Shown: one piece after another, positions 7,048-47,966 of the stretch | How the letters are laid out: each line of letters opens with the position of its first letter | Numbering within the stretch: position 1 is the stretch's first letter | DNA from: Alphaproteobacteria bacterium | GTDB lineage: Bacteria; Pseudomonadota; Alphaproteobacteria; Geminicoccales; Geminicoccaceae | Assembly: GCA_027045875.1 (NCBI GenBank) | Contig: JALUAG010000049.1 | Span: 62,001 to 126,000 of the forward strand | Direction of reading: 5' to 3' | DNA length: 64,000 nucleotides | Translations under genes and position numbers: made by a program | The notes under the pieces: model-generated | The model's database searches: none | What the model was told of the DNA's origin: nothing | What the model saw: only the letters and a program-made list of their open reading frames with translations

Positions 7048-7797
7048 TCACGCCCTGCCGTCGTCCGTCGGCCGCACGCAGCGGAAGCCGAAGAACTCGG
7101 CGACGGTATCCGGATAGTCGAAGAGCCGCTCGTAGACCTTGGCCATGTGCGGCAGCCCCTGGAAATGCCCACCGCGCAGGAAGGCCCGGAAGTCGTCGTC
7201 GCCGATCTCGGTCGGGGTCGGGCAGATGCCGCTGCGGCAGGCCCCGCCGCCGACGAACATGTCCGCGACCCATTCGGAAACGTTGCCCGCCATGTCGTAG
7301 ACCCCGTAGGGGCTCACGTCGGCGGGATGGCTGCCGACCGGGGCCGGCAGCTCGCCCTCGAGATAGGCGAATTCCGGTGCGAAGCGGTCGCCCCAGGGAT
7401 AGAGACGGCCGTCGGTTCCGCGCGCCGCCTTCTCCCACTCCCGTTCGGTGGGCAAACGCTTGCCCTGCCAGCGGCAGTAGGCCTCGGCGTCGTCCCAGCT
7501 CACTCCGGTCACCGGCTGGTCCGGGCGGTTGAAATCCGGATCGTCGGCGAACATCGGCGGACGGTGCCCGGTGGCCCGCACGAAGGCCATGTATTCGGCG
7601 TTGGTAACCTCGAAGCGGTCGATCCAGAAGCCGTCGACGTCGACCACCGTCGGCCCCGGCATGGCGGTGGGCGAGGGGCCGCCGAGCGGGACCGGCCCGG
7701 GCGGCACGTAGACCATCCCGCCCGGTCCTGCGGAGGAGCCGCTGGTGCCGGCCGCCAGCAGGAGGAGCAGGGCGAATCGGAGCGGCCGCCCGGTCAT
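7048..7797 (-). CDS. SUMF1/FGE-like exported protein, catalytic Cys pair absent
   Basis: The product is 249 aa from the ATG at 7797. An N-terminal signal peptide (RFALLLLLAAGTSGSS) precedes a formylglycine-generating-enzyme fold with the usual landmarks EVTNAEYMAFV, PVTGVSWDDAEAYCRW, RLPTEREWEKAARG and GVYDMAGNVSEWV, ending in GFRCVRP. The region before GFRC lacks the active-site Cys pair of sulfatase-activating FGEs, so it is probably a binding or structural member like those in NosD/redox operons or TagR. The ATG overlaps the stop of the 38-aa membrane peptide (ATGA). An upstream TTG at 7809 is possible but less likely. The setting in the idr-linked operon suggests a periplasmic assembly or scaffold role (inferred). 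Confidence 0.82.
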   Translation of the reverse strand: MTGRPLRFALLLLLAAGTSGSSAGPGGMVYVPPGPVPLGGPSPTAMPGPTVVDVDGFWIDRFEVTNAEYMAFVRATGHRPPMFADDPDFNRPDQPVTGVSWDDAEAYCRWQGKRLPTEREWEKAARGTDGRLYPWGDRFAPEFAYLEGELPAPVGSHPADVSPYGVYDMAGNVSEWVADMFVGGGACRSGICPTPTEIGDDDFRAFLRGGHFQGLPHMAKVYERLFDYPDTVAEFFGFRCVRPTDDGRA

Positions 7798-7910
7798 CGC
7801 AGGAGCCAATAGCCGAACAGCAGCAGCACCACGGCGGCGTTGACGGCGGCGCCGGCGAGCACGAACCCGTCGAACAGGTTCGGCCGGCGCCGCGCGGTCG
7901 AACGGTGCAT
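7794..7910 (-). CDS. 38-aa single-span membrane peptide
   Basis: This short frame starts at an ATG at 7910 and encodes 38 residues: a basic N-terminus (MHRSTARRRPN), then one hydrophobic helix of about 20 residues and a terminal LLR. Its stop overlaps the start of the SUMF1-like gene by four bases and it begins eight bases after the preceding gene's stop. This tight spacing in a row of coupled genes is the main reason to call it real. It would sit in the inner membrane with the N-terminus inside. It resembles the tiny accessory subunits found with respiratory complexes, but no family is recognised. Confidence 0.6.
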   Translation of the reverse strand: MHRSTARRRPNLFDGFVLAGAAVNAAVVLLLFGYWLLR

Positions 7911-7918: not shown

Positions 7919-8656
7919 TCAGTACGAGAAGGAGGCCTCGACGGTACCGCCGGCCGGCACCTCCACCTCGATCTCCTTGTCGCCGAGGCGACCGTGCCAG
8001 ACCTTGAGCACGTATTTTCCGGGCGGCACGTTGTCGATGGTGAAGTTGCCGTTGTCGTCGACGATGGCGAAATAGGGGTTCTTGGCGACGAACACCCAGC
8101 TGTGCATGAAGTTGTGCACGTCGCATTCCACCTTCATCGCCACGCCCTTCCGGAGCCGGATCTTCTTGGTGACCACGTTGCCCTGCTCGGACTGGCTGAC
8201 GTTGATCACCGTCCGCCGCGCCCGGCCGATGATCTCGTAGGTGTGGATGTTGTGGGTGACGGGGTCCGAGTTGATCATGGCGAGCTTGCCGCCGTTGGCC
8301 ATCGCCTGCAGATAGGGCACGAAGGCGCAGGCTTTCTGGTCGATCTCGGCGGTCTTGAGCGCCTCGGGGAAGGGTTTGCCCTCCTTGACCTTCTCGAGAT
8401 AGACGACGGCGTCGAGGAGTGCGTCGCCGTTGATCCGCACCCAGGGCACCGGGCGTTCGCCCTCGCCGCAGACGCTCTGGTCCTTGGTGATCAGGAAGGG
8501 TTCGACTTCCGGCTGGGCGTCGCCGGCCAGCACGCGGCCGGTGATGGTGCCCCCGTTGGTGACCTCGATCTCCTTGTACTTCTTGGCCATCGCCGGCGAT
8601 CCCTGTGCGATACCCAGAAGGCCGACCAGGCCTGCCGTCAACAGCAGTTTCTTCAT
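7919..8656 (-). CDS. Exported beta-rich protein with carboxypeptidase-regulatory-like C-terminus
   Basis: The 245-aa product has a clear Sec signal (MKKLLLTAGLVGLLGIAQG, cleavage near AMA-KK). The mature part starts GGTITGRVLAG and ends with a domain reading GNFTIDNVPPGKYVLKVWHG, typical of carboxypeptidase-regulatory-like or rhamnogalacturonan-lyase-type beta sandwiches. The middle has conserved-looking His and Cys (VTHNIHTYEI, KVECDVHNFMHSWVFV) reminiscent of cupredoxin-like metal sites, though a full blue-copper ligand set is not evident. The start at 8656 has an AGGAGG ribosome site ten bases upstream. It lies 16 bases after the HEAT-repeat gene. Similar proteins occur beside periplasmic cytochromes. 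A metal-binding or electron-transfer role is only a suggestion. Confidence 0.72.
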   Translation of the reverse strand: MKKLLLTAGLVGLLGIAQGSPAMAKKYKEIEVTNGGTITGRVLAGDAQPEVEPFLITKDQSVCGEGERPVPWVRINGDALLDAVVYLEKVKEGKPFPEALKTAEIDQKACAFVPYLQAMANGGKLAMINSDPVTHNIHTYEIIGRARRTVINVSQSEQGNVVTKKIRLRKGVAMKVECDVHNFMHSWVFVAKNPYFAIVDDNGNFTIDNVPPGKYVLKVWHGRLGDKEIEVEVPAGGTVEASFSY

Positions 8657-8672
8657 CGCGGGTTTCCCTCCT

Positions 8673-10997
8673 CTAGCTCTGCAGCGGTGAGCCCGCCGCA
8701 CCGCGTCGCTCCCCCGGTTCCGTATCCGGCCGGAACAGTTCCTCCGCCAGCTCGACGGCCGCCCGGCAGCGTTCGGGCTCGACGCCCGGCGCCAGGTCCT
8801 CCAGCAGGCAGCGACCGGCACCCGCCGCGTCGCTGCCGCGCAGCAGCCGACCGAGTCGGCGACGGTAGTAGCCTTCGAAGGCGACTGCCCGGCGGGCCAG
8901 TTCCGGCACCATCCGCGGTCCCTCGCAGGCGAGAAGGGCCTCGGCCGCCGCCAGTCGCACGGCGGGCTCCCGGTCGTCGAGCGCCGCCTCGCAGGCGGCA
9001 CGGTGCGCCCCGAGCCGGCCGAGACCGCGAAGCGCCTCGGCCCGCACGAAGGGGTCCTCGTCCTCGAGGGCTGCGGCGAGCGCGTCGCCGGCGGCCAGGT
9101 TCCGGGCCTCGCCCAGCGCGCGCACGACGGCGAGACGGCTGTCGCGGTCGGTGACGAAGCGGGCCGCCAGCAGCGCCTCGCCGGCGGTTTCCGGCAGCCG
9201 TCCGTCGCGGGCCGCCATGCGCGCCAGGGAGTCGGCGGCGGCGCCGGCGAGTTCGCGATCGCGGTCCAGCAGCAGGCGGGCGAGGGCCAGGGCGATGTCG
9301 TCCCCGGAAAGATCTGCCACCAGACGGGCGGCCAGCCGCGGTACGTCCTCCTCGGCCGCGATCTCGGGCTCCGGGGAGACCCGCCGCTTGCGGGGCAGCC
9401 GATGGGCGAGGGCCAGGAATTCGAGATCCTCCTCGGTGAGCTCGACGCTCTCCTCCTCCGCCTCCCGCGGCTCGGGCGCCGGCGGGGGACCGCCGAGGAT
9501 GGCCTCGAGGGTGGAGACGGGATAGCCGCCTTCCTCCTCCTGCGGCGGCGTCTGCGCCTTCTCCTTCGGCCCGTCCGCGTCGGCGTCCGCCTCCCCGTCC
9601 GTCGCCGTGGCGTGTGGGCGCCGCGCCTCCTCCCCTTCTTCTGCCGCCTGCCCGGCGGCCGCGGGCTCCGGATCCGGGTCCTCGGGCTCGCGGGCGAGTG
9701 TGCCCAGGAGCACCGTCCTGGCCTCCTCCGCGTTGGCGTCCTCGCCGCCGGCGAGGCCGGCCAGGAGCGAGAGCACGGTGATCCGCACCGCACGACGCGG
9801 ATCGTGGACATGGGGCGCGAGCAGCGGCACCGGCGCCGCATCCAGCCGGGCGAGGCATTCGGCGGCGGTGCAGCGCAGCGGATCGGGACGTGCGGTGTCG
9901 GCGAGCTGCTCGGCGAGATCCCGGCGGGCGATCTCGGGGGCGCGCGCGGCGAGGGCCTCGGCCGCCTTGGCCGCGACCGCCCCGTCCGGACCGCGCAGCT
10001 TGACCCGCAGCCGGCGCACGAGACGCGGGACGGTGAGGCGGGGAGCCTGGGCCAGCAGTTCGAGCACGGCACCCTGCACCTCGCCGCTCGGATCGTCGAG
10101 CAGCGCATCGAGATGTTCGCCGTGGAAGCGGCCGCAGCGACGCAGCGCCTCGGTGCGCAGCCGCGGTTCGGGGTCGCGTAGGAGCGCGGCCAGCGCCGGA
10201 TCGCGGGGGTCTCGTTCGGCGAGGGCGGCGAGCGCCACCAGTCGCACTTCGGGGTCCCGGTCGCGCAGCCCTTCGAGGAGCAGTGGCCGTGCCTCTTCCT
10301 GCCCGGAAACGGCGGCCGCCCGCATCACCCGCCGGCGCAGGCGGGGATCGGGATCGCGGGCGAGCTGCCGCAGTGCCGCGATGCCGGCGGCGCCCAGCCG
10401 GGCCAGCGCCCGGGTCGCGGGCTCGGACAGGTCCTGCCCCTCCTCGTCCCGCATGGCGGCAAGGATGTCCTCGGCCGCCGCCTCGACGCCCATCCGGGCG
10501 AGGGCCTCGATCGCGCGGGCCTGCACGTCCAGCCAGTCGTCCCAGCCTTCGAGGAGGAAGCCCTCCTCGTCCCACACCACGCCGGCTTCGCGGCTGCGCA
10601 CGAGAGCGCGCAGCAGGGGCACGGCCGGCTCGTGGCGCAGCCTCGCGAGACCGTCGATGGCCGCCAGCTTGACGGCCCCGCAGGGATCCTCGGCGAGGCT
10701 CTCGAGCAGGCCGTCGCCGAGCTCCGGACCGGCGAGGAGAGCCAGCGCCTCCGCCGCATCGCTGCGCACGTCCTCGTCGGGATCGCGGAGGGCCTCGGCG
10801 AGGGCGCGTACCGCCCTTCGGTCGGCGATCCGCCCGAGGGCCTGGGCCGCCCAGCAGCGCCGCAGCTCGTCCTCGCCGCCGAGCAGGCGACACAGCGCAT
10901 CGACGACGGCCTCGCGGACCGTCTCGGCTGCCGCATTCGACGATATCTTCGGGGTACTCTCGATCACGGGCCCGGACCTGCCTTCGTTGCCGTTCAC
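8673..10997 (-). CDS. HEAT-repeat protein
   Basis: The 774-aa product is built from tandem helical HEAT/PBS-lyase-like repeats (for example RRAVRALAEALRDPDEDVR and DPALAALLRDPEPRLRTEAL). The repeats form two blocks separated by an acidic, Pro/Ala-rich linker at about residues 430-520. There is no signal peptide or membrane segment, so it should be cytoplasmic. HEAT proteins serve as binding scaffolds or as bilin-lyase-like chaperones, and no catalytic site is visible. The first start is a GTG at 10997 with no good ribosome site. A second GTG at 10967, with AGG upstream, is a reasonable alternative. It follows idrA by 46 bases, across a strong hairpin. A role in maturing the reductase or its cytochromes is an inference from position. 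Confidence 0.8.
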   Translation of the reverse strand: MNGNEGRSGPVIESTPKISSNAAAETVREAVVDALCRLLGGEDELRRCWAAQALGRIADRRAVRALAEALRDPDEDVRSDAAEALALLAGPELGDGLLESLAEDPCGAVKLAAIDGLARLRHEPAVPLLRALVRSREAGVVWDEEGFLLEGWDDWLDVQARAIEALARMGVEAAAEDILAAMRDEEGQDLSEPATRALARLGAAGIAALRQLARDPDPRLRRRVMRAAAVSGQEEARPLLLEGLRDRDPEVRLVALAALAERDPRDPALAALLRDPEPRLRTEALRRCGRFHGEHLDALLDDPSGEVQGAVLELLAQAPRLTVPRLVRRLRVKLRGPDGAVAAKAAEALAARAPEIARRDLAEQLADTARPDPLRCTAAECLARLDAAPVPLLAPHVHDPRRAVRITVLSLLAGLAGGEDANAEEARTVLLGTLAREPEDPDPEPAAAGQAAEEGEEARRPHATATDGEADADADGPKEKAQTPPQEEEGGYPVSTLEAILGGPPPAPEPREAEEESVELTEEDLEFLALAHRLPRKRRVSPEPEIAAEEDVPRLAARLVADLSGDDIALALARLLLDRDRELAGAAADSLARMAARDGRLPETAGEALLAARFVTDRDSRLAVVRALGEARNLAAGDALAAALEDEDPFVRAEALRGLGRLGAHRAACEAALDDREPAVRLAAAEALLACEGPRMVPELARRAVAFEGYYRRRLGRLLRGSDAAGAGRCLLEDLAPGVEPERCRAAVELAEELFRPDTEPGERRGAAGSPLQS

Positions 10998-11003
10998 GCG
11001 AAC

Positions 11004-11037
11004 GGCCCGCCACCCGGCCGGGGCCGGATGGCGGGCC
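11004..11037 (-). terminator. Strong hairpin between idrA and the HEAT-repeat gene
   Basis: A perfect 9-bp inverted repeat (GGCCCGCCA / TGGCGGGCC) encloses a second internal GGCC/GGCC pairing. It falls in the 46-base gap after the idrA stop. No T-run follows on the minus strand, so it is not a canonical intrinsic terminator. It could be a partial terminator, an attenuator or an mRNA-stabilising hairpin that sets a higher level of the idr part of the transcript. Confidence 0.4.
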
Positions 11038-11043
11038 CGCCCC

Positions 11044-13716
11044 TCAGGCGATGTCGCGCGGTGCGAAGCTCATCGATCGGAAGCTGTTCTTGTAGGGCGA
11101 TGCGCCGACTTTCTTGATGCGGCCGACACCGATCTTGTAGTTGTAGTTGCCGCTGATCCAGTCGACCACGCGCCCCTCGAGGGCGTTCGCCGGCTGCTGG
11201 GTGTGCAGGAAGTCCATGTAGAGGACGCCCTTCTTGATGGCCGGCGTGACGATCGCCACTGCGGTGACCGCCGCCTTCGACAGCTCGATGTAGCCGTTCT
11301 TCATCAGGCCGCTGAAGCGGTAGTCGTCGGCATAGACGCCGAGCAGGGTCTCCTTCACGCTCGGGATCCGATCCGAGTAGAGCATCACGTAGTCGCCGCT
11401 CTCGATGCCGCGGGCGGCGGCATCCTCGGGATGGATCTCCACCCAGTTCTCCGGCCAGCGTTGGACCACGTAGGGGCGACGGCGATCGTCGAACCCGGAC
11501 TGCCAGCGCTCGTTGATTCGCCCCGAGGTGATCCACAGTTCGTCACCCTTGGGCTTCATCCACTCCCAGTAGTCGGAAAAGAGCGACCAGGGCGCCTTCT
11601 GCAGGTTGCACTTGCCGGTCTGGCTGTTGAAGCGCATCAACTTCTTGTTGAACACGTTGGCCCCGGCCGGGCCGGTCTCGGGCAGCTCTCGGGTGGTGTC
11701 GTGCAGCCGCTTGGTGCCGACGAGCGTGCCGTCGTCGCGCATGAACACCGGGCCCTGGATGCCGTCGGTACCGAACTCGGCCAGCTTCTGGTGCAGGGTC
11801 TTGCCCTCGCGCTGGGCCGCCACCTTGATCATGAAGAAGTCCTTGCGCGAACCGCGCGAGAAGCGGGCTGCCTCCTCCGCGACCTCGTTGGTGTCCCTCC
11901 AGTCGAAGCCGTCGAAGCCCATGCGCTTGGCGAGCTGTGCGACGATCCACCAGTCGGGCTTCGCCACGCCGGGCGGATCGTAGAACCGATTGTAGAGGCG
12001 CAGGCGACGCTCGCCGTTGGCGCGCATGAACGTGTCCTCGCCCCAGGTCGCCGCCGGGAAGACGATGTCGGCGTAGCGGTTGCCGATGGGATCGACGAGG
12101 TAGATGTCCTGGTTGATCACCACCATGCCGCCGGAATCCGCCCGCGCCTTCAGGGTGTCGATGATCTCCTGCTTGTCGAAGGAGCGGATCTGGTGGGGAT
12201 TGGCCACGACGAGCTCGTCGAAGCGCTTGGCGATCGCCTGGGAACCGGCCATCGACTGGATCCAGGTGCAGCCGATGGCATGGGCGAAGCGGGTATGCCC
12301 GGCCAGCAGCCATGTGTCGGTGTCCAGCGCGCGGCGCCGGCGGCCGGGAACCTTCATCGGCGACTTGTTGCGCGGATACTTGCCACCCCGCAGGCCGCCC
12401 CGCTGGTGTCCACCGGCACGGGCCACCACCTGTCCGGGCCTTCCGCCCGCGCCGCAGATGATGCCCAGCGCCGCCAGCGCATTGGTGTTACCGGTGTTGT
12501 TCGACCAGTAGCCACCCTTCTCGATCATCAGCGACGTCTTGGGGCGCGTGCCGTCCGGCCGCGGCTTGGCCATCCATTCGGCGGCGGTGCGGATCTTCTG
12601 GGGATCGATCTGGGCGATGGCCGCTGCCTTCTCCACCTCGAACTCGGGCTGCGCCAGCAGCCACTTCTTCCAGTCCTCGAAGCCGTCGGTCTGGAACAGG
12701 CCCCAGGTGGTCCGCCATTGCCAGGGGGTGTTGCGGGTGCCCTGGCCGAAACCGGAGTTGGATTCCCATTTGTTGTTGACGAACTTGGCGATCCACTCCT
12801 TGTCCTGCCAGTCGTTCTCCACGATCACCCGGGCGATGGCCATCATCACCACGAGGTCGGTGCCCGGGGTGACGTCGATCCACATGCCGCCGTTCTTCTC
12901 GGCATAGGCGACGCCCGCGGTCCGCCGCGGCAGCAGGAAGATGGTCTTCTGACCGCGCTGGATGCCGGGCATGATCCACTGGGTGAACAGGATGGTCTTG
13001 GTCTCGTAGGGATCGGTGCCGCAGATGAACAGCGTCTCGGCGTCCCGCCAGTCCTCGTACGAGGGGCCGAAGTTGTCGAACCCGGCATCCCGGAAACCCG
13101 GCGTCGAGGTGACGTCGGACGGGGTGTCGTGGAAGGTGAAGTTGGCGGTGTTGATGTGCCGCAGCGCGAACTTGGTGATGGCGTAGGTGTTCTCGATGAA
13201 CTGGTAGGAGTACATCTTGACGCCATACGCCAGCGGGCCGTGCTTCTCGATGACGTAGCGGCCCACCTCGGCGGCGATGTCGAGGGCGAAATCCCAGGAC
13301 ACCGGCATCAGGGTACCGTACATGCGCAGGAGCGGCGTCTTCAGACGGTCGCGGGTGGGAGTCTGCGGGTTGTAGCACTTCTGGGCGATGCAGCCGCCCC
13401 GCAGGCTCGAATCCCCGTTGAGGTTGACCGACTTGATGTCCTTGTCGGGGATGATCACCACATGGTGCGGCTGGCCGTTGTGCAGCACGATGTTGTGCTG
13501 GTTGGGCGCCACCCAGGGACCCAGCGGATCCACCGGGAAGTCGACGCCGAAGGCGTTCTCCTCCTTGCTCGGCCCACCCGATGCGGCGATCACCGGCCAG
13601 CGGTAGACCTTGTACCCACAGGCGACGACACAGTAGTCGCAGACCGTGTCGATGACTTCCGCACCCTTGGGAGGCAGGGGGACCTTGCTCTCGGGAATGT
13701 AGTAGGGCGTTGCCAT
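11044..13716 (-). CDS. idrA: Iodate reductase-like molybdopterin catalytic subunit IdrA (AioA family)
   Basis: This 890-aa DMSO-reductase-family enzyme binds a bis-MGD molybdenum centre. The N-terminal cluster motif C26-x2-C29-x3-C33 (CDYCVVACGYKVYRWP), with a Ser (about residue 104, SSLRGGCIAQK) where other family members have the fourth Cys, is the arsenite-oxidase-type 3Fe-4S arrangement. There is no Tat signal, so export would ride on the IdrB partner, as in AioAB. The two diheme peroxidase-like genes in the same operon are characteristic of dissimilatory iodate reductase (IdrABP1P2) and are not part of aio loci. The predicted reaction is periplasmic reduction of iodate. The start has AGGAGG eight bases upstream, overlapping the idrB stop. 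Arsenite oxidase or another AioA-like activity is the main alternative. Confidence 0.82.
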   Translation of the reverse strand: MATPYYIPESKVPLPPKGAEVIDTVCDYCVVACGYKVYRWPVIAASGGPSKEENAFGVDFPVDPLGPWVAPNQHNIVLHNGQPHHVVIIPDKDIKSVNLNGDSSLRGGCIAQKCYNPQTPTRDRLKTPLLRMYGTLMPVSWDFALDIAAEVGRYVIEKHGPLAYGVKMYSYQFIENTYAITKFALRHINTANFTFHDTPSDVTSTPGFRDAGFDNFGPSYEDWRDAETLFICGTDPYETKTILFTQWIMPGIQRGQKTIFLLPRRTAGVAYAEKNGGMWIDVTPGTDLVVMMAIARVIVENDWQDKEWIAKFVNNKWESNSGFGQGTRNTPWQWRTTWGLFQTDGFEDWKKWLLAQPEFEVEKAAAIAQIDPQKIRTAAEWMAKPRPDGTRPKTSLMIEKGGYWSNNTGNTNALAALGIICGAGGRPGQVVARAGGHQRGGLRGGKYPRNKSPMKVPGRRRRALDTDTWLLAGHTRFAHAIGCTWIQSMAGSQAIAKRFDELVVANPHQIRSFDKQEIIDTLKARADSGGMVVINQDIYLVDPIGNRYADIVFPAATWGEDTFMRANGERRLRLYNRFYDPPGVAKPDWWIVAQLAKRMGFDGFDWRDTNEVAEEAARFSRGSRKDFFMIKVAAQREGKTLHQKLAEFGTDGIQGPVFMRDDGTLVGTKRLHDTTRELPETGPAGANVFNKKLMRFNSQTGKCNLQKAPWSLFSDYWEWMKPKGDELWITSGRINERWQSGFDDRRRPYVVQRWPENWVEIHPEDAAARGIESGDYVMLYSDRIPSVKETLLGVYADDYRFSGLMKNGYIELSKAAVTAVAIVTPAIKKGVLYMDFLHTQQPANALEGRVVDWISGNYNYKIGVGRIKKVGASPYKNSFRSMSFAPRDIA

Positions 13717-13728
13717 GCCGGCGTCCTC

Positions 13729-14313
13729 CTAGCCTTTGAGATTGTCGTAGCGGCCGAAGATCAGCCCGAAGATGCCGACCGCGTAGATCTCGTCGCCTTC
13801 GAGCTCCAGCAGCACCTGGGGCAGGCTCTGGTAGGCCTGGCCGGAGATCAGGATGCCGTGACGGGTGAGGTCGTAGGTCGACAGATGCAGCGGGCAGGGC
13901 CCCAGGGATTTGGTGGCACCCCTGTAGGTCTCCTGCAGCGGGCCGCCCTGATGGGTGCAGGTATAGTTGAAGGCGACGACGTCGCGGTCGGGGCCGATGC
14001 CGCCGCCGGCGGGCACGCCGAGCTTGACCAGCATCGATTCCGCATAGGCCCCTTCGTCGGGATAGGTGAAGTCGACCGGCACGTCGACCTCGAGCTCGCT
14101 GAGCCTGGCGATGAACTTGCGCTCAAACACCGCCACCCGGGCCGGCGCCTTCTGGGCCAGCGCCGTGCCGGCGTTCAGCACCACCATGGTGGTGAAGGTG
14201 GTGGCTCCCGAGGTCAGCAGGAAATGACGGCGGGACATGGCGCAGGGAGCGTGTTCGCCGCCGGCCGTGCCGCGCTCCAGGTCCAGTCCGGGGTTTCGAT
14301 AGACGGTTGTCAT
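13729..14313 (-). CDS. idrB: Iodate reductase-like Rieske subunit IdrB (AioB family)
   Basis: The 194-aa Rieske 2Fe-2S protein has ligands C119-T-H121 (CTHQGG) and C140-x2-H143 (CPLH). It carries a twin-arginine signal (SRRHFLLTSG) followed by a hydrophobic stretch, so the folded heterodimer with the catalytic subunit should leave through Tat. It would pass electrons between the molybdenum subunit and periplasmic cytochrome c. I chose the ATG at 14313 because GAGGAA lies seven bases upstream. A second in-frame ATG at 14331 overlaps the stop of the preceding cytochrome gene (ATGA) and would add six residues. The idrA gene follows after 12 bases. As in AioB and IdrB, there is no transmembrane anchor after the signal. 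Confidence 0.85.
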   Translation of the reverse strand: MTTVYRNPGLDLERGTAGGEHAPCAMSRRHFLLTSGATTFTTMVVLNAGTALAQKAPARVAVFERKFIARLSELEVDVPVDFTYPDEGAYAESMLVKLGVPAGGGIGPDRDVVAFNYTCTHQGGPLQETYRGATKSLGPCPLHLSTYDLTRHGILISGQAYQSLPQVLLELEGDEIYAVGIFGLIFGRYDNLKG

Positions 14314-14327
14314 GACCGGTTCCTCGC

Positions 14328-15467
14328 TCATTCGGTGATCGCCGGCAGGGGCGCGTAATCGGGCAGCTTCGGAGGAGTGATCCGGATTTCCTCGCCGCTC
14401 AGCGATTCGAGGAACGCCACCAGATCCTCCACCTCCTCGTCGCTCAGCCCGAGCGGCTTGATGAGTTCGCTCTTGGTCTCCATGAACTCGTTCTCGCCGC
14501 CGCCGGCGTTGTAGAACTCGACCACCTCCTGGAGATCCCAGAGCGCGCCGTTGTGCATGTAGGGGGCGGTGTAGAGGGTGTAGCGCAGCGGTGCGGTGCG
14601 GAACTTGCCCTTGTCCTTCGGATTCTTGGTCCGGTAGTAGAGACCCGCATCGTCCTTGATCGAGCGGTACATCTCCTCCGTCACGCCCTTGGCGTACTGT
14701 TCGTAGCGGAAGGTGACCTGGGCGAGCCCGTCCTCCTCCCAGCGCTCCGCCGGGGGCACGCCGATGTTGTAGTACTTCTGGTCGGTCAGCAGCGCCCCGT
14801 TGTGGCACTGGATGCAGCCGGCCTTGCCCTGGAACAGCTCCAGCCCGCGCACCTGCTGTTCGGTGAGCGCGTTCTTGTTGCCCCGCATGTACTGGTCGAA
14901 GGGCGTGTCGTTGTGGATCAGCGTCCGCTCGAAGGCGGCGATCGCCCGCCAGGCGTTGCCGATGGTCGGCCACGGATCACCGAAGATCTCGCGGAACAGG
15001 CGACGGTATTCGGGGATGAAGGCGAGGCGCGCTTCCATCATGTCGCTCTCGCCGTTGCCGGCCACCGCGCCCTTGGCCGCGCTCGCCGCCTGCGCCTCCA
15101 GCGACTTCGAGGCGCCGGCCCAGAACAGCTTGCCGAGATAGGCGGCGTTCACCACCGTCTGGCTGTTCCGCCAGTGGACGGTTCCCGGATAGCCGCGTGA
15201 GAAGTCGTCGGAGAACGCCCAGCCCTGCGCAGCCTCGTGACAGCTCGAGCAGGCGATCGAGGCATCGCCGCCGAGGCGGGGGTCGAAGAACAGCATCTTG
15301 CCCAGTTCGACCTTCTCCGGTGTCTGCGGATTGTCGGCCGGGATGGGCGGAGGGCCGAGCGCCGCCAGGGGCGGGAAGTCCTCGCCCGCGAGGGCCGGCG
15401 GCTCGGGCTGCAGCAGGGCGATGAGGGCCGCCGCCGAGAGAAGGAAGGTGGTCTTGCGCGTGATCAT
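14328..15467 (-). CDS. idrP1: Diheme cytochrome c peroxidase-like protein (IdrP1/IdrP2 type)
   Basis: The 379-aa exported protein (signal MITRKTTFLLSAAALIALL) belongs to the MauG/cytochrome c peroxidase family. It has two covalent heme sites, CSSCH (about residue 76) and CIQCH (about residue 218), plus the family motifs GKMLFFDPRLGGD, LFQGKAGCIQCHNG and TAPYMHNG. Iodate reductase loci encode two such proteins, proposed to remove H2O2 or a reactive iodine intermediate formed during iodate reduction. It lies ten bases after its paralogue and abuts idrB. Which copy corresponds to P1 and which to P2 cannot be settled without alignment. A stand-alone H2O2 peroxidase is the alternative, but position in the operon argues for the Idr role. 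Confidence 0.8.
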   Translation of the reverse strand: MITRKTTFLLSAAALIALLQPEPPALAGEDFPPLAALGPPPIPADNPQTPEKVELGKMLFFDPRLGGDASIACSSCHEAAQGWAFSDDFSRGYPGTVHWRNSQTVVNAAYLGKLFWAGASKSLEAQAASAAKGAVAGNGESDMMEARLAFIPEYRRLFREIFGDPWPTIGNAWRAIAAFERTLIHNDTPFDQYMRGNKNALTEQQVRGLELFQGKAGCIQCHNGALLTDQKYYNIGVPPAERWEEDGLAQVTFRYEQYAKGVTEEMYRSIKDDAGLYYRTKNPKDKGKFRTAPLRYTLYTAPYMHNGALWDLQEVVEFYNAGGGENEFMETKSELIKPLGLSDEEVEDLVAFLESLSGEEIRITPPKLPDYAPLPAITE

Positions 15468-15477
15468 CGCTCGGCTC

Positions 15478-16593
15478 CTAGTTCGGGGTGTTCCGCCAGT
15501 CCTCGATCGCCTCGTATTCGGTCGGGATCGGCTCGCTCCACACGAACTCCGGTCCGTCGAGCGGGTCCCCGGAAAGCGCCATCAGGAAGGCCACGAGATC
15601 GATCTGCTCCTGGGTGGAAAGTCCGAGGGGCCGGATGGCGGGATCCTTGTTGGGATCGGTGCCGCCGCCGGCGTTGTAGAAGGCGACCACTTCCTCGAGC
15701 GTCTTGAACACGCCGTTGTGCATGTAGGGCGCCGTGTACTTGAGCTCGCGCAGACTCGGCGTCATGAACTTGCCGATGTCGGAGCCGTCGGCCTTGTGGG
15801 TCTGCACGTGGGCGCCGACGTCGCGGCGGATGTTCATGTAGTTCTCGACGCCCATGAACTTCGCGTAGGCCACGTAGGTGACGTGCCGCAGGGGATTGCG
15901 GAAGACGTCGAGATTCTCCGGCACTCCCAGATTGTGCGCCTGCTGGTCGGTGAACAGCGGGCCGCTGTGGCACTGGGCGCAGCCCGCCTTGCCCTTGAAC
16001 AGCTCGAAACCGCGCTTCGCCGAATCCGACATCCGGCCGGTGTCGAAGGGCGCGTTCCGCGAGGTCAGGGTCTTGAGATACTCGGGGATCGCCTTGCGGG
16101 CGCCGCCGTTGCTGGGCTCGCCCAGCCCGGCCTTTTCGAACATCTCGACGTAGACCGGATCCTGCTTGAGGCGCTCCTGCATCAACCTCATGTCCATGTT
16201 CATGAAGTAGCTTTCCGTGATCATCTCACGGGTGACGTCGTTGAGGTTGGTGCCGATGCGGCCGTCGTGGAACCAGATCCGCTTGTAGGCGGTATTGATC
16301 AGCGTCGGTGTGTTGCGGAAGCCGTCCGAGCCCGGATAGGCGGGCGAGAGGGGGAGATTGTTGGCGTAACCGTACTGCGGCTGGTGACAGCTCGCGCAGC
16401 TCAGCGCCGCGTCCCCGGAAAGGCGCTTGTCGAAGAACAAGCGCTTGCCGAGCTCGGCGCGGGCCGCGTTCACCTCCAGCGGCTCGAGAGGGCCGAATTC
16501 CTGGGCGGCCACGGCGGTCGCCCCCACCGCCATGCTCGCGACCAGTGCCAGCGCGAAACTTCGCGGCAGGTTGACGGGGCGCCTTGCTTTCAT
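15478..16593 (-). CDS. idrP2: Diheme cytochrome c peroxidase-like protein (IdrP2/IdrP1 type)
   Basis: The 371-aa periplasmic diheme protein has a signal peptide (FALALVASMAVGATAVAAQ) and CxxCH sites CASCH and CAQCH. Family motifs are GKRLFFDKRLSGD, FKGKAGCAQCHSG and TAPYMHNGVFKTLEEVV. It is a diverged paralogue of the next gene and is the first gene of the idr set, preceded by a 157-base intergenic region with an FNR-type palindrome 108 bases upstream of the start. The ATG at 16593 has GGAGG in the expected window. The proposed job is detoxifying peroxide or hypoiodous acid released by the reductase, using electrons from cytochrome c. The P1/P2 naming is provisional. Confidence 0.8.
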   Translation of the reverse strand: MKARRPVNLPRSFALALVASMAVGATAVAAQEFGPLEPLEVNAARAELGKRLFFDKRLSGDAALSCASCHQPQYGYANNLPLSPAYPGSDGFRNTPTLINTAYKRIWFHDGRIGTNLNDVTREMITESYFMNMDMRLMQERLKQDPVYVEMFEKAGLGEPSNGGARKAIPEYLKTLTSRNAPFDTGRMSDSAKRGFELFKGKAGCAQCHSGPLFTDQQAHNLGVPENLDVFRNPLRHVTYVAYAKFMGVENYMNIRRDVGAHVQTHKADGSDIGKFMTPSLRELKYTAPYMHNGVFKTLEEVVAFYNAGGGTDPNKDPAIRPLGLSTQEQIDLVAFLMALSGDPLDGPEFVWSEPIPTEYEAIEDWRNTPN

Positions 16594-16750: not shown

Positions 16751-19054
16751 TCAGCGGTCGCGATCGTCGAAACGACGCCGTTGCGCGCGCACGCCGGCAA
16801 GGAAGAGGAGGCCGGCCAGCAGCCCGGCGAGACCGCTCGTGCCATAGAGACGGATCGGGTCCTCCTCCGGCTCCAGCAGCAGCCAGTACCAGCCGGTCAG
16901 GGTGTGGCGACTGCCCTGCTGGCCGTCCCAGCCGTCCCAGTTGGCGAAGGCCACCGGGATGTAGCGCCCCGCCTCGAAACGGATGTCGCGCCCGTCCGCG
17001 GTCTCCAGAGGCCGGCGGAAGACGACCCGCCACTGCCCGTCCGACCATTCGCCGCGGACCCGCAGCGCGCTGCTGTCGTCGCGCGGGCTCGGCGGACCGT
17101 CGGGGCCGCGGGCATCGAGGATCAGCCCCTCCTCCGGCGCCGGCGGTTCGATGGAGGGGGCGCGCCAGTACCAGATGTTGACCGGGTTCTTGGGGTCGCC
17201 GTGGCGGAACCAGGGCTTTTCGCTGGTGGTCGGGATGGTGGTCGGGAACTGCACGGCCACCGCGTCACGAGTGGGTTCCACCCCGTCCCGACGATACTGC
17301 TTCTCGAGCGGGTCGCCGGGCACCGAGTAGGTGCGGTCGTCGACATCGAGGCGCATTGCCATCGCCTCGGCATTGAACAGCACCCGCACCGTCACCCGGT
17401 CGTTGAGGGAGTGGAAGAGACGCGGTTCCTTGATGACGTTGGGCAGCAGCGCGAAGGTGACGGCCGGCGCCTCCTCCCAGGCGGGATCGTCCGGATCCTC
17501 GGGCAGCGGGCCGTCGATGCGCAGCCCGCGCACCACCGTCTCGCCGGCGCTCAGCGGCACCGCCTTGTCGCGCAGGGTCATCACGTAGTTGGCGATGTCC
17601 CAGCGCTGCCGCTCGCTCATCTCCGTCGTGTGCTCGGGCATCGGCGTGCCGCGGATGCCCGTGCTGATGCGCTGGAACACGTCCTCGGCGTCCTTGGTCC
17701 AGCGCCAGGTCGAGGGGCGGGTCAGATTGCGCGGCCAGATGCGGTCGCCCCAGTCGTCCTTGAGCTTCTTGCCGGAGGTGACGTTGCCGCGGCCTTCCGC
17801 GCCGTGGCACTGCACGCAGGCCTTCTCGAACAGCTCGCGGCCGCGGGCCAGGGAAGCGGCGTCGGGCTCGACCCGCTCACCGAGTTCGATGGGCGCGAGA
17901 CCGAGATCCTCCGGCGTGTCCTCGTCCCACTCGCCGAACTCCTTGATGAGCCGCACGAGCGCGTCGATCTCGGGTTCCTTGAGGCGCTTGCCCCATCCCG
18001 GCATGGCGGTCCCCGGCAGGCCCTCGCGGATCGTCTTCTTGAGATCCTCGTCGTAGGGGAACTCGGAATCGGCGTGGGTGGTCTTGTACTTGAAGACGCC
18101 GAGGGTGAAGTCGCGCGGCTTGGGGTAGAGGAACTCGGCCACCGGCCCCTGACCGTCGCCCTCCCGGCCGTGGCACTGGGCGCAGTAGGTGAGATAGAGC
18201 TCTTCGGCCCGCTCCCGGCTCACCTCGCCGGCGGCCGCCTCGCCCGACGGTACCGGATCCGGCTGCGGCGTTTCCTCCACCGCCCCGGTCTCGGCCAGCT
18301 CCCAGGAACGGGGTTCGAAACCGGTGTAGTCGTAGAGGAACAGGATCGCCTTCCAGACCTCTTCCTCGTCGAGCATCTCCTCCCAGACGGGCATCGCCGA
18401 CAGCCAGGGGGCGCCTTCCCGCGGCAGCCCGGGGCCGCCCGTGGTGATCCGCCAGAAGACGTAGGATTCCTGGAGCTGGGCGATGGTGCCGACGTCCCGG
18501 AAGTTGGCCGGCTGCGGGTTGAAGCCGTAGGCGAAGACGCCGTCGCCGTCGAGATCGTCGCCGTGACAGTAAAGGCAGTTCTTGTAGTAGATCTCGGCCC
18601 CCTCGGCGACCAGGGCACGGTAGCCCTCGCTGCCCTTGGGGTTGTCCTCGCGCAGCGGATTCCGGAGTTCCACGAGATTGAAGGTCTTGTCGTAGATGCG
18701 GATGGTGGTGGGCGGTGCCGGGTGCACCGAACGCAGTTCCACCGGCGCCTCGAAGCTCGGCTTGGCCCAGGAGTAGGCCAGCGAGGCGCTGCCCCCGACC
18801 ACGAGCAGCAGGGCCAGGAGACGCAGCCAGCGCAGGCGCGGATGCCCCAGCAGCAGGCGGAAGGGTTCGACGAGCCGCTCGTAGGTGACGTCGTCGAAGG
18901 TGGCCACCATCAGCACGCCGATGACCGTGAAGACCATGAACTGCAACAGCAGCGAGCGCGGCATCGGCGGCTGGAGGCCGTAGGCGAAAAAGGCGTACAG
19001 GGCGAGAATGACCACCACCACCCAGAGCAGGGGATGGGTAACGACGCGTCTCAC
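16751..19054 (-). CDS. Membrane triheme cytochrome c with ethylbenzene-dehydrogenase-type heme b domain
   Basis: The 767-aa product starts with three membrane helices (residues about 8-27, 36-52, 77-95). It then has three c-heme sites: CLYCH near 160, CAQCH near 289 and CVQCH near 410. From about residue 495 a beta-rich domain (VRGLRIDGPLPEDPDDPAW through WDGWDGQQGSRHTLTGWYW) resembles the gamma subunit of ethylbenzene/DMS dehydrogenases, which holds one heme b. A last helix anchors the C-terminus. This fusion would carry electrons at the periplasmic face between a respiratory enzyme and the bd-like subunit. Its start overlaps the stop of the upstream diheme cytochrome gene by four bases. The domain order is uncommon; similar parts occur in nitrite-oxidiser and chlorate/DMS respiratory loci. 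Confidence 0.8.
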   Translation of the reverse strand: MRRVVTHPLLWVVVVILALYAFFAYGLQPPMPRSLLLQFMVFTVIGVLMVATFDDVTYERLVEPFRLLLGHPRLRWLRLLALLLVVGGSASLAYSWAKPSFEAPVELRSVHPAPPTTIRIYDKTFNLVELRNPLREDNPKGSEGYRALVAEGAEIYYKNCLYCHGDDLDGDGVFAYGFNPQPANFRDVGTIAQLQESYVFWRITTGGPGLPREGAPWLSAMPVWEEMLDEEEVWKAILFLYDYTGFEPRSWELAETGAVEETPQPDPVPSGEAAAGEVSRERAEELYLTYCAQCHGREGDGQGPVAEFLYPKPRDFTLGVFKYKTTHADSEFPYDEDLKKTIREGLPGTAMPGWGKRLKEPEIDALVRLIKEFGEWDEDTPEDLGLAPIELGERVEPDAASLARGRELFEKACVQCHGAEGRGNVTSGKKLKDDWGDRIWPRNLTRPSTWRWTKDAEDVFQRISTGIRGTPMPEHTTEMSERQRWDIANYVMTLRDKAVPLSAGETVVRGLRIDGPLPEDPDDPAWEEAPAVTFALLPNVIKEPRLFHSLNDRVTVRVLFNAEAMAMRLDVDDRTYSVPGDPLEKQYRRDGVEPTRDAVAVQFPTTIPTTSEKPWFRHGDPKNPVNIWYWRAPSIEPPAPEEGLILDARGPDGPPSPRDDSSALRVRGEWSDGQWRVVFRRPLETADGRDIRFEAGRYIPVAFANWDGWDGQQGSRHTLTGWYWLLLEPEEDPIRLYGTSGLAGLLAGLLFLAGVRAQRRRFDDRDR

Positions 19055-19899
19055 GGCTTGGGCTCCCCGCCGTCGAGGCCAGCCAGGTAGTCGAGCAGGA
19101 TCTCCAGTTCGCTGGCACGCATCTGTTCACCGAAGTCACCCGGCATCAGCCCGGGCTCGTAGCCCGGCGCGACCTCGGCGTCGGGATCGAGGATGGCGCG
19201 GCGCAGTGCCTCGCGGTCGAGCCGGGCGCCGATGCCCGCGAGCGGCGGTCCGAGATCGGCACCCGAACCGTCGAGATCGTGACAGGCGGCGCAGCCGTAG
19301 CGGTCGATCACCTCCTCGGGAGTCGTGGCCGGTGCCTCCTCCTCCCCATCGGCGCCGGCCTCGGCCGCCGCCGTCGTCCCGGCGGCGGGCAGGGGAACGG
19401 TGATCTCGACCCCCGCCCGATCCTGGAGAAAGGCGATCAGGGCGTCGATCTCCGTCGGCGTCAGCGAGATGGGTGGGACGTCCACCCTGGGCATCGGGCT
19501 CTCGCGATCCTGCGTCCCCTTCTTGCCGAAGCCGGGCACCACGTAGACCGAGGGCTCGAGCATCGATTCCCGCAGATAGACCTCGAACGCCTCCGCCTCC
19601 TCGAGCCCCTTGGCGGCTCCGGTGTAGCGGGGATCCTCGATCCGGCTGCGCAGCTCCTCGGCGAGATCCATGGCCAGCATGTCGGGGGCGCGGCCCAGCT
19701 TGTTGTGGCACAGGGTGCAGGTGCCCTTGCCCGAGAACAGCCGTTCGCCCCAGGCGATCTGGCCGGCGCGATCGAGACTGCCGAGCTCGATCTCCTCCTC
19801 GGCCGGCGGGTTGGACTGCACCTGCGGCAGGATGTTGGCGAAAAGGGTGTAGGCCAGGAGCACCGCCAGGCTGAACAGGGTGACGCGCAGGAAGGTCAT
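19051..19899 (-). CDS. Membrane-anchored diheme cytochrome c
   Basis: The 282-aa product has an uncleaved N-terminal helix (FLRVTLFSLAVLLAYTLFA) and two c-heme sites, CTLCH at residue 61 and CAACH near residue 205. They sit in two cytochrome c domains separated by an Ala/Glu-rich linker. Probable axial Met residues are in SPMPRVDVPP and GLMPGDFGE. It overlaps the genes on both sides by four bases, giving an oxidase-cytochrome-cytochrome unit. It likely relays electrons to or from the bd-like subunit, which lacks a recognisable quinol site. The exact partner is not known. Confidence 0.82.
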   Translation of the reverse strand: MTFLRVTLFSLAVLLAYTLFANILPQVQSNPPAEEEIELGSLDRAGQIAWGERLFSGKGTCTLCHNKLGRAPDMLAMDLAEELRSRIEDPRYTGAAKGLEEAEAFEVYLRESMLEPSVYVVPGFGKKGTQDRESPMPRVDVPPISLTPTEIDALIAFLQDRAGVEITVPLPAAGTTAAAEAGADGEEEAPATTPEEVIDRYGCAACHDLDGSGADLGPPLAGIGARLDREALRRAILDPDAEVAPGYEPGLMPGDFGEQMRASELEILLDYLAGLDGGEPKP

Positions 19900-21650
19900 C
19901 GGCCGCCCTCCGCAGCCGGCGCCTGCTGGCGGGTGTCACCCACCTGGCTGAGCCAGAAGATGAACACGATCACCGCCATGAAGACGAGGGTGATCACGGT
20001 GATGAAATTGCCCGCCTCGCCGATGGTCGGGATGTAGGCGTCGGGAGAGCGGTCCTTCATGATGGTGTAGACGTGCCAGTAGGTGCGGACCGAGCTGCGG
20101 ATGTAGCCCATCAGCGCCATCAGCCAGGTGAAGGCCACCGGCAGCACGAACAGGGCGTACTGCGAACGTGTCGACATCCGTCCCCACGCCACCGGCCGGG
20201 TGACCGCGCCCCGGTACATGAAGGCCTCGATCACCAGGGCGAAGACGATCACCGCCAGGGTGGAGAGCACCTGCGGCACCGAGGCGCCGACCTTGTAGAC
20301 GGTGGGCGTGACATAGCCGTAGATGCCGGCACCGACGATGTTGAGCGTCGCCGCCAGATAGAGAGCGGCGATCACGCAGTTCCCGATCCAGGCCCAGGGC
20401 ACGGTGGGGGTGCGGCTCGCGCGCCGGAACAGCTGGAAGGAAAGGAAGGTGGCGAGCAGCATCATGTTCACGGCGGTGTTCTTGGCCGGCATGATGCCGA
20501 GGGGACCGAGGAGGGGATGGTTGGTGCCGCCGATGGCCAGCACCTCCTGCGGCGTGAGAATCAGGGTGTGCGGGGTCACCCAGACGAGGAATCCGGCCAC
20601 CAGCACGGCGGCGATGTACTTGACCCAGGGCACGAACCGGCGTCCGCCCTCGGTGCGCATCAGGCCGCACCACAGATAGTAGTTGGCGGCCAGCAAGATG
20701 GAGCCGATCAGCACCGCCTGGATGATGAACAGCCAGGCCAGGACGCCGCCCATGGCGGTGATCCCCATCTGCTGGCTGTAGGCGTAGATCTCGGCCATCA
20801 GCCAGTAGCCGGCGAAGGGCAGGGGCAGGAAGCCGAGGATGGCGATGAAGTTGGCGGTGTAGCCCATCCAGTCGTAATGGGCCCGTTCCTCGGCGGTGCG
20901 GGCGGCGAGGAACCGGTAGGCGGCGTAGGCGCCGACGATGGCCCCGCCGTAGGCGATGTTGGCGAGGAAGCGGTGGAGGTTGAGCGGGTTCCAGAGCGGG
21001 CCCTGCATCGCCGCCCACACCGACCCCAGGGGAGTCCCCGCCTCGTCGACGCCGGAAGGCGCCATCATGAAGGTGGCCCAGGCGTTGGCGACGAACATCA
21101 GCGTGGTGCCCACGGCGTTGAGCAGCACGCCGATCGACAGGTGGATCCATTTGCGGTCACCGTAGCGCAGGGCGTTCCAGGTGTAGAAATAGACGTAGAG
21201 CAGCAGGCTCTCGAGGATGAACAGGAGGGCGTAGATGAGGACCTGGCCGTCGAATACCCGGAGCAGATAGCCCATCAGCACCGGATAGAAGAGGAACAGG
21301 GCGAGGGCCAGGGCGCCGCCGGTGAGGGCGGTGAAGGCATAGGCCGCCATCGAGATCTTCATGAACTCGTGGGCCATGCGATCGTAGCGCTCGTCCCGGG
21401 TCAGCACCCCGGTGAGCTCGATCGCCACCACGAACATCGGCACGGCGAGCACGAAGGCGGCCAGAAAGAGGTGCATCTGGGCCAGCGCCCACACCACCGG
21501 CCGACCGGTCATGCCGGCGATGCGAGGATAGTCGGCGGCGGTGGGGGAGGGTGCCGGGGCACCCGGATCTTCCGCCGCGAGGCCGAAATGAGGCAGGACG
21601 ACGGCGAGACCGACGGCCGCCAGTCCGCAGAGGAGGAGCCGCCACTTCAT
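19896..21650 (-). CDS. Cytochrome bd-like oxidase subunit I (CydA-like)
   Basis: The 584-aa polytopic membrane protein resembles cytochrome bd subunit I. It begins with a signal-like segment, then a helix with a candidate heme ligand His60 (ALAQMHLFLAA) and a second His in NPLNLHRFLANIAYGG. More than ten further helices follow. The quinol-binding Q-loop motif GRQPW of true CydA is not seen, and no CydB gene is adjacent. Instead the gene is fused by overlap to two c-type cytochrome genes. This matches the bd-like oxidases described in nitrite-oxidising bacteria, proposed to take electrons from cytochrome c. ATG at 21650 overlaps the stop of a 42-aa membrane peptide. Substrate (O2 or otherwise) is not proven by sequence. 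Confidence 0.78.
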   Translation of the reverse strand: MKWRLLLCGLAAVGLAVVLPHFGLAAEDPGAPAPSPTAADYPRIAGMTGRPVVWALAQMHLFLAAFVLAVPMFVVAIELTGVLTRDERYDRMAHEFMKISMAAYAFTALTGGALALALFLFYPVLMGYLLRVFDGQVLIYALLFILESLLLYVYFYTWNALRYGDRKWIHLSIGVLLNAVGTTLMFVANAWATFMMAPSGVDEAGTPLGSVWAAMQGPLWNPLNLHRFLANIAYGGAIVGAYAAYRFLAARTAEERAHYDWMGYTANFIAILGFLPLPFAGYWLMAEIYAYSQQMGITAMGGVLAWLFIIQAVLIGSILLAANYYLWCGLMRTEGGRRFVPWVKYIAAVLVAGFLVWVTPHTLILTPQEVLAIGGTNHPLLGPLGIMPAKNTAVNMMLLATFLSFQLFRRASRTPTVPWAWIGNCVIAALYLAATLNIVGAGIYGYVTPTVYKVGASVPQVLSTLAVIVFALVIEAFMYRGAVTRPVAWGRMSTRSQYALFVLPVAFTWLMALMGYIRSSVRTYWHVYTIMKDRSPDAYIPTIGEAGNFITVITLVFMAVIVFIFWLSQVGDTRQQAPAAEGGR

Positions 21651-21775
21651 GACAGTGGCATCAGGTTCCAGCCGACCGGCAGGCCTTGCGCCGTCATGAC
21701 GAGCCAGTCGACAGCATAGAAGAACACCGCCCAGCCCGCGAAGGCGAGCAGGAACACCAGGGCCCGGGCCGCCAT
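21647..21775 (-). CDS. 42-aa single-span membrane peptide
   Basis: A short frame with ATG at 21775 and a GGGGAG ribosome site six bases upstream encodes 42 residues. These comprise one hydrophobic helix (LVFLLAFAGWAVFFYAVDWL) and a short polar tail ending NLMPLS. Its stop overlaps the start of the bd-like subunit by four bases. Small one-helix subunits such as CydX or CcoQ stabilise terminal oxidases. This could be an equivalent for the bd-like protein, but no family is recognised. Confidence 0.6.
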   Translation of the reverse strand: MAARALVFLLAFAGWAVFFYAVDWLVMTAQGLPVGWNLMPLS

Positions 21776-21787: not shown

Positions 21788-21916
21788 TCAGCCTTCCATA
21801 CCGGCCGGTACCCCGTGCCGGTAGATCAGGAACCACCAGAAGAAGACCAGCACGGCCGCCAGCGTCGCGGCGAAGATCCACGGGCCGATCCGTGCCGGCC
21901 GGCGGGGGTCGGTCAT
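21788..21916 (-). CDS. 42-aa single-span membrane peptide
   Basis: ATG at 21916 opens a 42-residue frame with a basic, Pro-rich start (MTDPRRPARIGP), one helix (WIFAATLAAVLVFFWWFLIY) and a short tail. It lies 12 bases before the second small membrane peptide and 37 bases after the 99-aa gene. Size and placement suggest a small oxidase or cytochrome-complex subunit. The call rests on the good helix, the codon pattern and operon spacing, not on homology. Confidence 0.55.
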   Translation of the reverse strand: MTDPRRPARIGPWIFAATLAAVLVFFWWFLIYRHGVPAGMEG

Positions 21917-21953: not shown

Positions 21954-22253
21954 TCACGAACAGCGCTCGGCGATCGCCTGCCGGAGCCGGTCGAGATAGG
22001 CCGTCTCGGGTTCCTCCGGTCGCGGGGGCACGAGGTAGAGCAGCCTGGCGGCGATCGCGTAGCCGCGGGTGGGCTCCTCGCCGGCCGGCCGGCGCTCGCG
22101 CAGTACGCGGGCCACCCGCTCCAGGGTCTCTTCGCGCGTCTCGCAGTAGCGCGGCAGGGTCACCCGGTCGGCATACCATTCGGCGGCCGCGAACAGTCCC
22201 CGCAGCAACAGGAACACGGTCAGCAGAACGACGACGACGCGCAAACCCGACAT
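21954..22253 (-). CDS. Hypothetical membrane-anchored protein (99 aa)
   Basis: The product has one N-terminal helix (LRVVVVLLTVFLLLRGLFAAA) followed by a charged, helical domain of about 75 residues with two Cys (PRYCETREETLERV and AERCS at the C-terminus) that could form a disulfide in the periplasm. I chose ATG at 22253; the frame could start further upstream at 22322, but that extension is basic and unlike a membrane protein N-terminus. It is the first gene of the bd-like/cytochrome operon and lies about 94 bases from an FNR-type palindrome. No family recognised. Confidence 0.62.
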   Translation of the reverse strand: MSGLRVVVVLLTVFLLLRGLFAAAEWYADRVTLPRYCETREETLERVARVLRERRPAGEEPTRGYAIAARLLYLVPPRPEEPETAYLDRLRQAIAERCS

Positions 22254-22428: not shown

Positions 22429-22503
22429 TGGCTGGGGCGGCAGGATTCGAACCTGCGAATGCTGGAACCAAAATCCAGTGCCTTACCACTTGGCGACGCC
22501 CCA
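22429..22503 (-). tRNA. tRNA-Gln (anticodon UUG)
   Basis: The minus strand folds as a standard 75-base tRNA. The 7-bp acceptor stem pairs TGGGGCG with CGCCCCA. The D arm includes AAGTGGTAAGGC, and the anticodon stem CTGGA/TCCAG encloses a loop with TTG. The T arm is GCAGGTTCGAATCCTGC, with discriminator G followed by an encoded CCA. It decodes CAA. Its 3' end faces the bd-like/idr gene block, a common insertion point for genomic islands. Confidence 0.95.
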
Positions 22504-36697: not shown

Positions 36698-36728
36698 ACC
36701 GACCAACAACGGGCAAAGGAGAACCGCA

Positions 36729-37838: not shown

Positions 37839-37858
37839 CTACCGGAAGGAGGGAGACG

Positions 37859-47957: not shown

Positions 47958-47966
47958 GAGCGGGCG

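Follow-up and report, generated by a model that had tools for sequence, protein, structure and literature searches.

Described iodate reductases and the locus under study

Iodate reductases contribute to the balance between iodate and iodide in seawater, and this balance influences atmospheric ozone. Their gene clusters (idrABP1P2) have been described in Pseudomonas sp. SCT, Denitromonas sp. IR-12, Azoarcus DN11 and Roseovarius azorensis (PMC8692401, PMC11445184, PMC10149662). Here we analysed a stretch of 64,000 nucleotides ("the window"; C49:62001-126000) from a 3.5-Mb alphaproteobacterial genome judged 99.9% complete. It carries the same four genes in the order P2-P1-B-A, and judging from the sequence this locus very probably encodes an iodate reductase of the IdrABP1P2 kind. 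As in the published clusters, only IdrB bears a twin-arginine (Tat) signal, IdrP1 and IdrP2 have Sec-type signals, and no chlorite dismutase gene (cld) was found in the whole genome. According to PMC8692401, nearly all idr genomes likewise lack chlorite dismutase. Given its absence from the window's genome, we dropped a model involving this enzyme. The window differs from the published clusters in that a HEAT-repeat gene comes after the idr genes, and that the operon also includes a CydA-like/cytochrome c module and heme genes.

Iodate reduction was shown in three alphaproteobacterial relatives (Roseovarius, Notoacmeibacter and Aliiroseovarius), and the Aliiroseovarius species reduces iodate in culture. 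In such relatives, reduction was complete only in static, oxygen-limited culture, it was induced by iodate and static growth, and there was no anaerobic growth (PMC11445184). This behaviour is more in keeping with a system used at low oxygen than with strictly anaerobic respiration. The core locus is therefore one more representative of a family already on record for this class. An initial annotation of the window had proposed that the locus extends the known context of iodate respiration. The long operon bears this out, while the organism alone adds no new context because alphaproteobacterial idr clusters have been published (PMC8692401, PMC11445184), and the word "respiration" goes further than the results on the aerobic alphaproteobacteria tested, in which oxygen limitation was the main condition for iodate reduction.

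The same idrP2, P1, B, A order is also known from Methylomirabilis iodofontis, which is not among the usual Proteobacteria strains; in the available part of PMC10989891 no extended operon is described and its IdrA is closest to a planctomycete protein. The Denitromonas cluster lacks a quinone oxidoreductase and the genes around idr are poorly conserved, as stated in the accessible text of PMC8692401. Published idr clusters were described without a dedicated electron-transfer partner, for which the HEAT gene and the bd-like module are concrete candidates; both are amenable to deletion in culturable idr strains, including Ruegeria and Roseibium for the HEAT gene. A fixed HEAT partner and a recurring bd-like/cytochrome module were undescribed in the idr texts searched, though the figures and supplements of PMC8692401 might show them. 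Among bd-like proteins, the closest described are CydAA' (OR-N) of Nitrospinota and Nitrospirota, which are regarded as using cytochrome c in place of quinol (PMC10839748, PMC12342949), and TO_1 of Nitrospirota, in which a bd-like protein is paired with a periplasmic cytochrome b (PMC9040806).

Identity of the idr genes

The idr core is located at 11044-16593 of the window on the minus strand, and consists of the following genes:

11044..13716, minus strand: idrA, predicted molybdopterin catalytic subunit of iodate reductase, 890 aa, no signal peptide (TIGR02693, 408.7 bits, above cut-off; IdrA clade)
13729..14331, minus strand: idrB, Tat-exported Rieske small subunit, 200 aa, ATG start (TIGR02694, 109.7 bits; SRRHFLL; CTHQ...CPLH)
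14328..15467, minus strand: idrP1, diheme cytochrome c peroxidase/MauG-family protein, 379 aa (PF03150, 1e-42; two CxxCH; signal-like N terminus)
15478..16593, minus strand: idrP2, diheme cytochrome c peroxidase/MauG-family protein, 371 aa (PF03150, 2e-37; two CxxCH; signal-like N terminus)

All four family matches are far beyond chance. The intergenic gaps P2/P1, P1/B and B/A are 10, -4 and 12 bases, and both peroxidase genes adjoin idrBA; a longer idrB open reading frame (ORF) listed from 14973 has a wrong start. The 3Fe-4S motif of IdrA is C26-x2-C29-x3-C33, followed by Ser104 at the position of the AioA serine (Ser in 86/86 IdrA and 9/9 AioA of the alignment). IdrB has the twin-arginine signal MSRRHFLL and the Rieske ligands C125-x-H ... 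C-x2-H. Export signals were read by sequence motif, and none was seen on IdrA. IdrP1 and IdrP2 each contain a CCP_MauG domain, and they are the only PF03150 proteins genome-wide. All of this agrees with the initial annotation, which had named an AioA-like large subunit with C-x2-C-x3-C plus Ser, a Tat-exported Rieske small subunit and two diheme peroxidase paralogues in one operon. The locus and its flanks are also present in a same-genus genome (G002, an alphaproteobacterial metagenome-assembled genome; locus L031), with proteins 70-96% identical, so it is real beyond one assembly.

The window proteins resemble the arsenite oxidase AioAB of Alcaligenes faecalis and Rhizobium NT-26 in domain architecture, 3Fe-4S motif with Ser and Rieske subunit, and the equivalents of A. 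faecalis AioA His195, Arg419 and His423 are kept. NCBIfam names both subunits arsenate reductase (azurin), i.e. AioAB-like, and an iodate reductase model is absent among its matches. The nearest solved structures are also AioA/AioB, and the family name would be assigned automatically, so that the subunits could be read as an arsenite oxidase standing beside peroxidase genes by chance. However, a scan of genome contigs with IdrA gave 402 relatives, and the best 80 of them are 75-96% identical to the window protein, nearly all from Alphaproteobacteria and many of them marine (96% for the same-genus protein and 75-81% for many marine alphaproteobacterial IdrA), while identity to true arsenite oxidases is only about 29-33%. 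In a plasmid collection, three records match at 66% (Vibrio), 50% (Azonexus) and 50% (Thiothrix), and every AioA at about 30%; the annotated Azonexus match lies in a full P2-P1-B-A idr cluster.

In a maximum-likelihood tree of 36 proteins, which do not include the experimentally proven IdrA of Pseudomonas sp. SCT, Denitromonas IR-12 and Roseovarius azorensis, the window IdrA is nested among alphaproteobacterial IdrA, including one from an Aliiroseovarius (L102). The IdrA clade has a support of 99/98 and AioA forms a separate group, whereas the initial annotation had named branching inside the AioA clade as the outcome that would speak against iodate reductase. The active-site pocket, which it had proposed to align, is also of the IdrA type. 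The roles of the pocket residues are known from the AioA structure, in which Glu203 binds arsenite. This residue is Ser204 in the window IdrA; among the aligned proteins, 83/86 IdrA have Ser here and 9/9 AioA have Glu. The HQE motif of AioA reads HQR in 85/86 IdrA, including the window protein.

Gene order points the same way. Practically every locus of sufficient length has the order P2-P1-B-A, while the AioA loci examined (NT-26 and others; locus L150 by tblastn, with the gene calls of L140 left out of comparisons) lack peroxidase genes, as the initial annotation had expected. Moreover, a true AioA (33% identical to IdrA) is encoded elsewhere in the window's genome, on contig C54, together with its own small subunit, and no peroxidase genes were found within the 16 kb examined near it. 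From the tree, the active site and the separate AioA, we rejected an arsenite oxidase identity, which we regard as extremely improbable.

An IdrB/IdrA-like pair without peroxidases was also observed in a genome of the window's own family (L146, G005:C62:139000-158900; positions 8584-11774), with a diheme cytochrome c and an exported protein after the pair. The IdrA-like protein (43-45% identical) forms a long branch at the base of the IdrA clade, and it may be an intermediate between AioA and IdrA.

The guanine-plus-cytosine (GC) content of the idr core genes is 0.65-0.67, compared with 0.72-0.76 in the flanking genes, hinting at an older transfer. An island inserted at tRNA-Gln (22429-22503) was considered and rejected: no second copy of the final 12 to 18 tRNA bases occurs in the window, and the flanks are common to the same-genus genome.

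A HEAT-repeat gene follows idrA

The gene next to idrA is:

8673..10967, minus strand: HEAT-repeat protein, no signal peptide, proposed IdrA assembly factor (PF13646, 5.6e-45; alpha-solenoid model with a predicted local distance difference test (pLDDT) score of 85)

We compared 83 idr neighbourhoods and scored HEAT adjacency in the 78 named loci with enough sequence. The HEAT gene directly follows idrA in 76 of these 78 loci; because the loci are those closest to the window protein, this figure holds for alphaproteobacterial IdrA and not for all. In a more divergent idr genome (G155, locus L144; IdrA 58% identical), a related HEAT gene occupies the same place (1e-45). None was found in the Azonexus idr locus. 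The structure model matches many alpha-solenoids and is uninformative on function. Most likely, the HEAT protein acts in the cytosol, either in the assembly of IdrA or in its Tat proofreading.

The idr locus on a plasmid of Vibrio sp. THAF190c contains a divergently transcribed 673-aa gene (L009:7028-9049, minus strand) that is weakly related to the HEAT protein (hmmsearch, 6e-8).

A bd-like module in the idr operon

Genes on the minus strand run from about 21.9 kb down to 2.7 kb, roughly 19 kb in all, and strand and spacing suggest that the whole run may be a single transcript. The gap between the EB_dh-domain cytochrome gene and idrP2 is 157 bp, and that between idrA and the HEAT gene is 76 bp. 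Besides the genes above, it includes:

21954..22253, minus strand: 99-aa conserved small protein, probable first operon gene (homologues near idr in L031, L036, L039, L080, L092 and L108)
21788..21916, minus strand: 42-aa single-helix ORF upstream of the CydA-like gene, read from sequence
21647..21775, minus strand: 42-aa single-helix ORF overlapping the CydA-like start (ATGA), read from sequence, CydX-like by position only
19896..21650, minus strand: CydA-like membrane protein, predicted bd superfamily, about 12 or more helices, no long Q-loop evident in the model (PF01654, 1e-16)
19051..19899, minus strand: diheme cytochrome c with N-terminal anchor (two CxxCH; 4-base overlaps with its neighbours)
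16751..19054, minus strand: membrane-anchored cytochrome c, three CxxCH, EB_dh domain at the C terminus (heme b, dimethyl sulfoxide reductase gamma-like; homologues at the same place in L031, L062, L080, L090, L092 and L108)
7919..8656, minus strand: exported protein with carboxypeptidase-regulatory-like domain (in 29/83 loci compared, usually after the HEAT gene)
7048..7809, minus strand: FGE-sulfatase-domain (formylglycine-generating-like) protein (PF03781, 3.7e-53)
5362..7014, minus strand: universal stress protein (Usp) domain with PCP_red repeats, from domain matches
4077..5354, minus strand: radical SAM protein of AhbD/NirJ2 (heme b/heme d1 synthesis) type with PCP_red domain (TIGR04545, 312.8 bits, and TIGR04055, 308.9 bits, both below the cut-off of 500)
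2668..4080, minus strand: protoporphyrinogen oxidase-like flavin adenine dinucleotide (FAD) enzyme (TIGR00562, 261.6 bits, above the cut-off of 97.85)

Ten structures of bd-oxidase subunit I match the AlphaFold2 model of the CydA-like protein (pLDDT 78) at Z 27-31, and membrane subunits of alternative complex III come next at Z 18-21. In known bd oxidases, conserved His residues bind heme, and a second conserved Glu and a heme-pocket Glu (E99/E101 in quinol enzymes) are also recognized. H60, E147 and H226 are invariant across 24 homologues of the CydA-like protein; H60 and H226 align with the conserved His and E147 with the second Glu, while Tyr140 stands where quinol bd oxidases have the heme-pocket Glu. 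In the model, helices 253-274 and 277-294 are joined without a long Q-loop. By its predicted CydA fold and conserved heme His, the product belongs to the bd superfamily. The module resembles CydAA'/OR-N and TO_1 in make-up, with a CydA-type membrane protein that would work with periplasmic cytochromes. As in CydAA', several idr relatives hold two CydA-like paralogues per locus, while the window holds one; unlike the hosts of CydAA' and TO_1, the bearers here are Alphaproteobacteria, with the module inside idr operons.

Two arrangements exist: the CydA-like gene is upstream of idr in 6 loci (66-91% identity), and downstream, after the HEAT gene, in 17 loci, as a longer diverged subtype (33-44%). 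Among 385 evenly sampled genomes of the class, 12 have IdrA (E up to 1e-150), 11 have the CydA-like protein (E up to 1e-20) and 7 have both, against 0.34 expected; the CydA-like protein is present in 7/12 IdrA genomes and 4/373 others. The seven genomes are labelled as six families. Fisher's p is 1e-9, or 2e-8 without the window's genome, values which are too small because relatedness was uncorrected. The CydA-like protein had no tblastn match in the plasmid collection.

Four loci (L144, L145, L149 and L151, from G155, G315, G216 and G309) are respiratory super-operons, in which two CydA-like subtypes come after idr, each with a separate cytochrome set (diheme c, monoheme c and EB_dh type). 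Both subtypes are in succession in G155, G309 and G315, while in G216 the second ends at the contig edge. L151 also contains Usp, radical SAM and protoporphyrinogen oxidase genes. The CydA-like/cytochrome module was seen without IdrA in L141, L142 and L143; it is preceded by a probable sensor kinase and response regulator in L142, and L141 keeps the Usp-radical SAM-protoporphyrinogen oxidase genes.

Proposed mechanism and competing explanations

Based on these genes, IdrA would be folded in the cytosol, with the HEAT protein taking part in its assembly or Tat quality control, and then exported through the Tat signal of IdrB. Electrons would pass from c-type cytochromes to the IdrB Rieske centre, the 3Fe-4S cluster of IdrA and the molybdenum bis-molybdopterin guanine dinucleotide site, where iodate would be reduced to hypoiodous acid in the periplasm, as in published models. 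IdrP1 and IdrP2 may clear peroxide or other oxidants formed en route. The CydA-like protein and the two multiheme cytochromes would form a cytochrome-c-linked bd-family complex that works with this cytochrome pool when oxygen is low, and its hemes are probably supplied or tailored by the radical SAM and protoporphyrinogen oxidase proteins. Sequences and models show the identities of the genes, the clade and active site of IdrA, the order, conservation and co-occurrence of the genes, and the folds, and papers on relatives supply low-oxygen induction and periplasmic location; the roles of the HEAT protein, the CydA-like module and the heme genes, and the direction of electron flow, are what we infer.

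The co-operonic module is probably tied to Idr in function, while its specific role as proposed here has somewhat less than an even chance. We consider it rather doubtful that in many Alphaproteobacteria Idr is a self-contained respiratory system with its own HEAT assembly factor, a bd-family cytochrome-c-linked complex (with one or two CydA-like proteins) and a heme cassette. If true, this would name a dedicated membrane partner coupling iodate reduction to the respiratory chain. Several points weigh against the main reading of the locus. Iodate as the substrate is carried over from papers on relatives and not from this organism, and the IdrA clade is anchored by gene order and the Aliiroseovarius relative (L102), not by a tested protein. 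In most idr loci of the Ruegeria/Roseibium type, the module is absent from the 10 kb around. The bd-like module is also not idr-specific, since four genomes of the class carry it with neither IdrA nor AioA.

The last point also suits another explanation, in which the module is a separate micro-oxic terminal oxidase (OR-N/OR-C, CydAA'-like) merely co-regulated with Idr at low oxygen. The CydA fold, with no long Q-loop visible in the model, and the view of described OR-N enzymes as cytochrome c-oxidising oxygen reductases are in line with this, whereas Tyr140 in place of the heme-pocket Glu of quinol enzymes argues against it. The strong co-occurrence with IdrA, and the two arrangements and two subtypes in idr operons, also argue against a separate oxidase, but co-regulation could yield the same pattern. 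Such an oxidase is a serious contender, to which we give a little under an even chance.

Oxidase-like modules co-occurring with IdrA could also suggest the opposite direction, with IdrAB oxidising iodide or another high-potential donor and electrons flowing through cytochromes and the bd-like oxidase to O2, as in nitrite- or manganese-oxidising Nitrospirota. The IdrA superfamily has reversible members, and the most similar modules on record, TO_1 with its bd-like protein and periplasmic cytochrome b, work in high-potential lithotrophs (PMC9040806). However, idr organisms reduce iodate and deletion of idrA abolishes iodate-dependent growth, as reported in the available part of PMC8692401, and low oxygen together with iodate increases the expression of idr (PMC11445184). 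Oxidation of iodide is thus highly unlikely, and iodate reduction remains the preferred direction. The iodide/iodate couple with O2 also yields little energy.

Other genes in the window

At 34529-38979 (plus strand), a copper-type P-ATPase, a beta-propeller protein, a c-type cytochrome and a second Rieske protein are encoded in a row; at 64-66%, the cytochrome and Rieske protein match counterparts from a set lying close to idr in Ruegeria intermedia (L066). At 44177-53451 (plus strand), subunits of xanthine dehydrogenase type are followed by an ATP-binding cassette (ABC) transporter with a PnrA/BMP-type binding protein, probably for purine uptake and degradation. The region 56000-64000 has a GC content of 0.64-0.65 compared with 0.70; among its long ORFs on the minus strand are those for an FtsX-type permease and a VWA-like protein.

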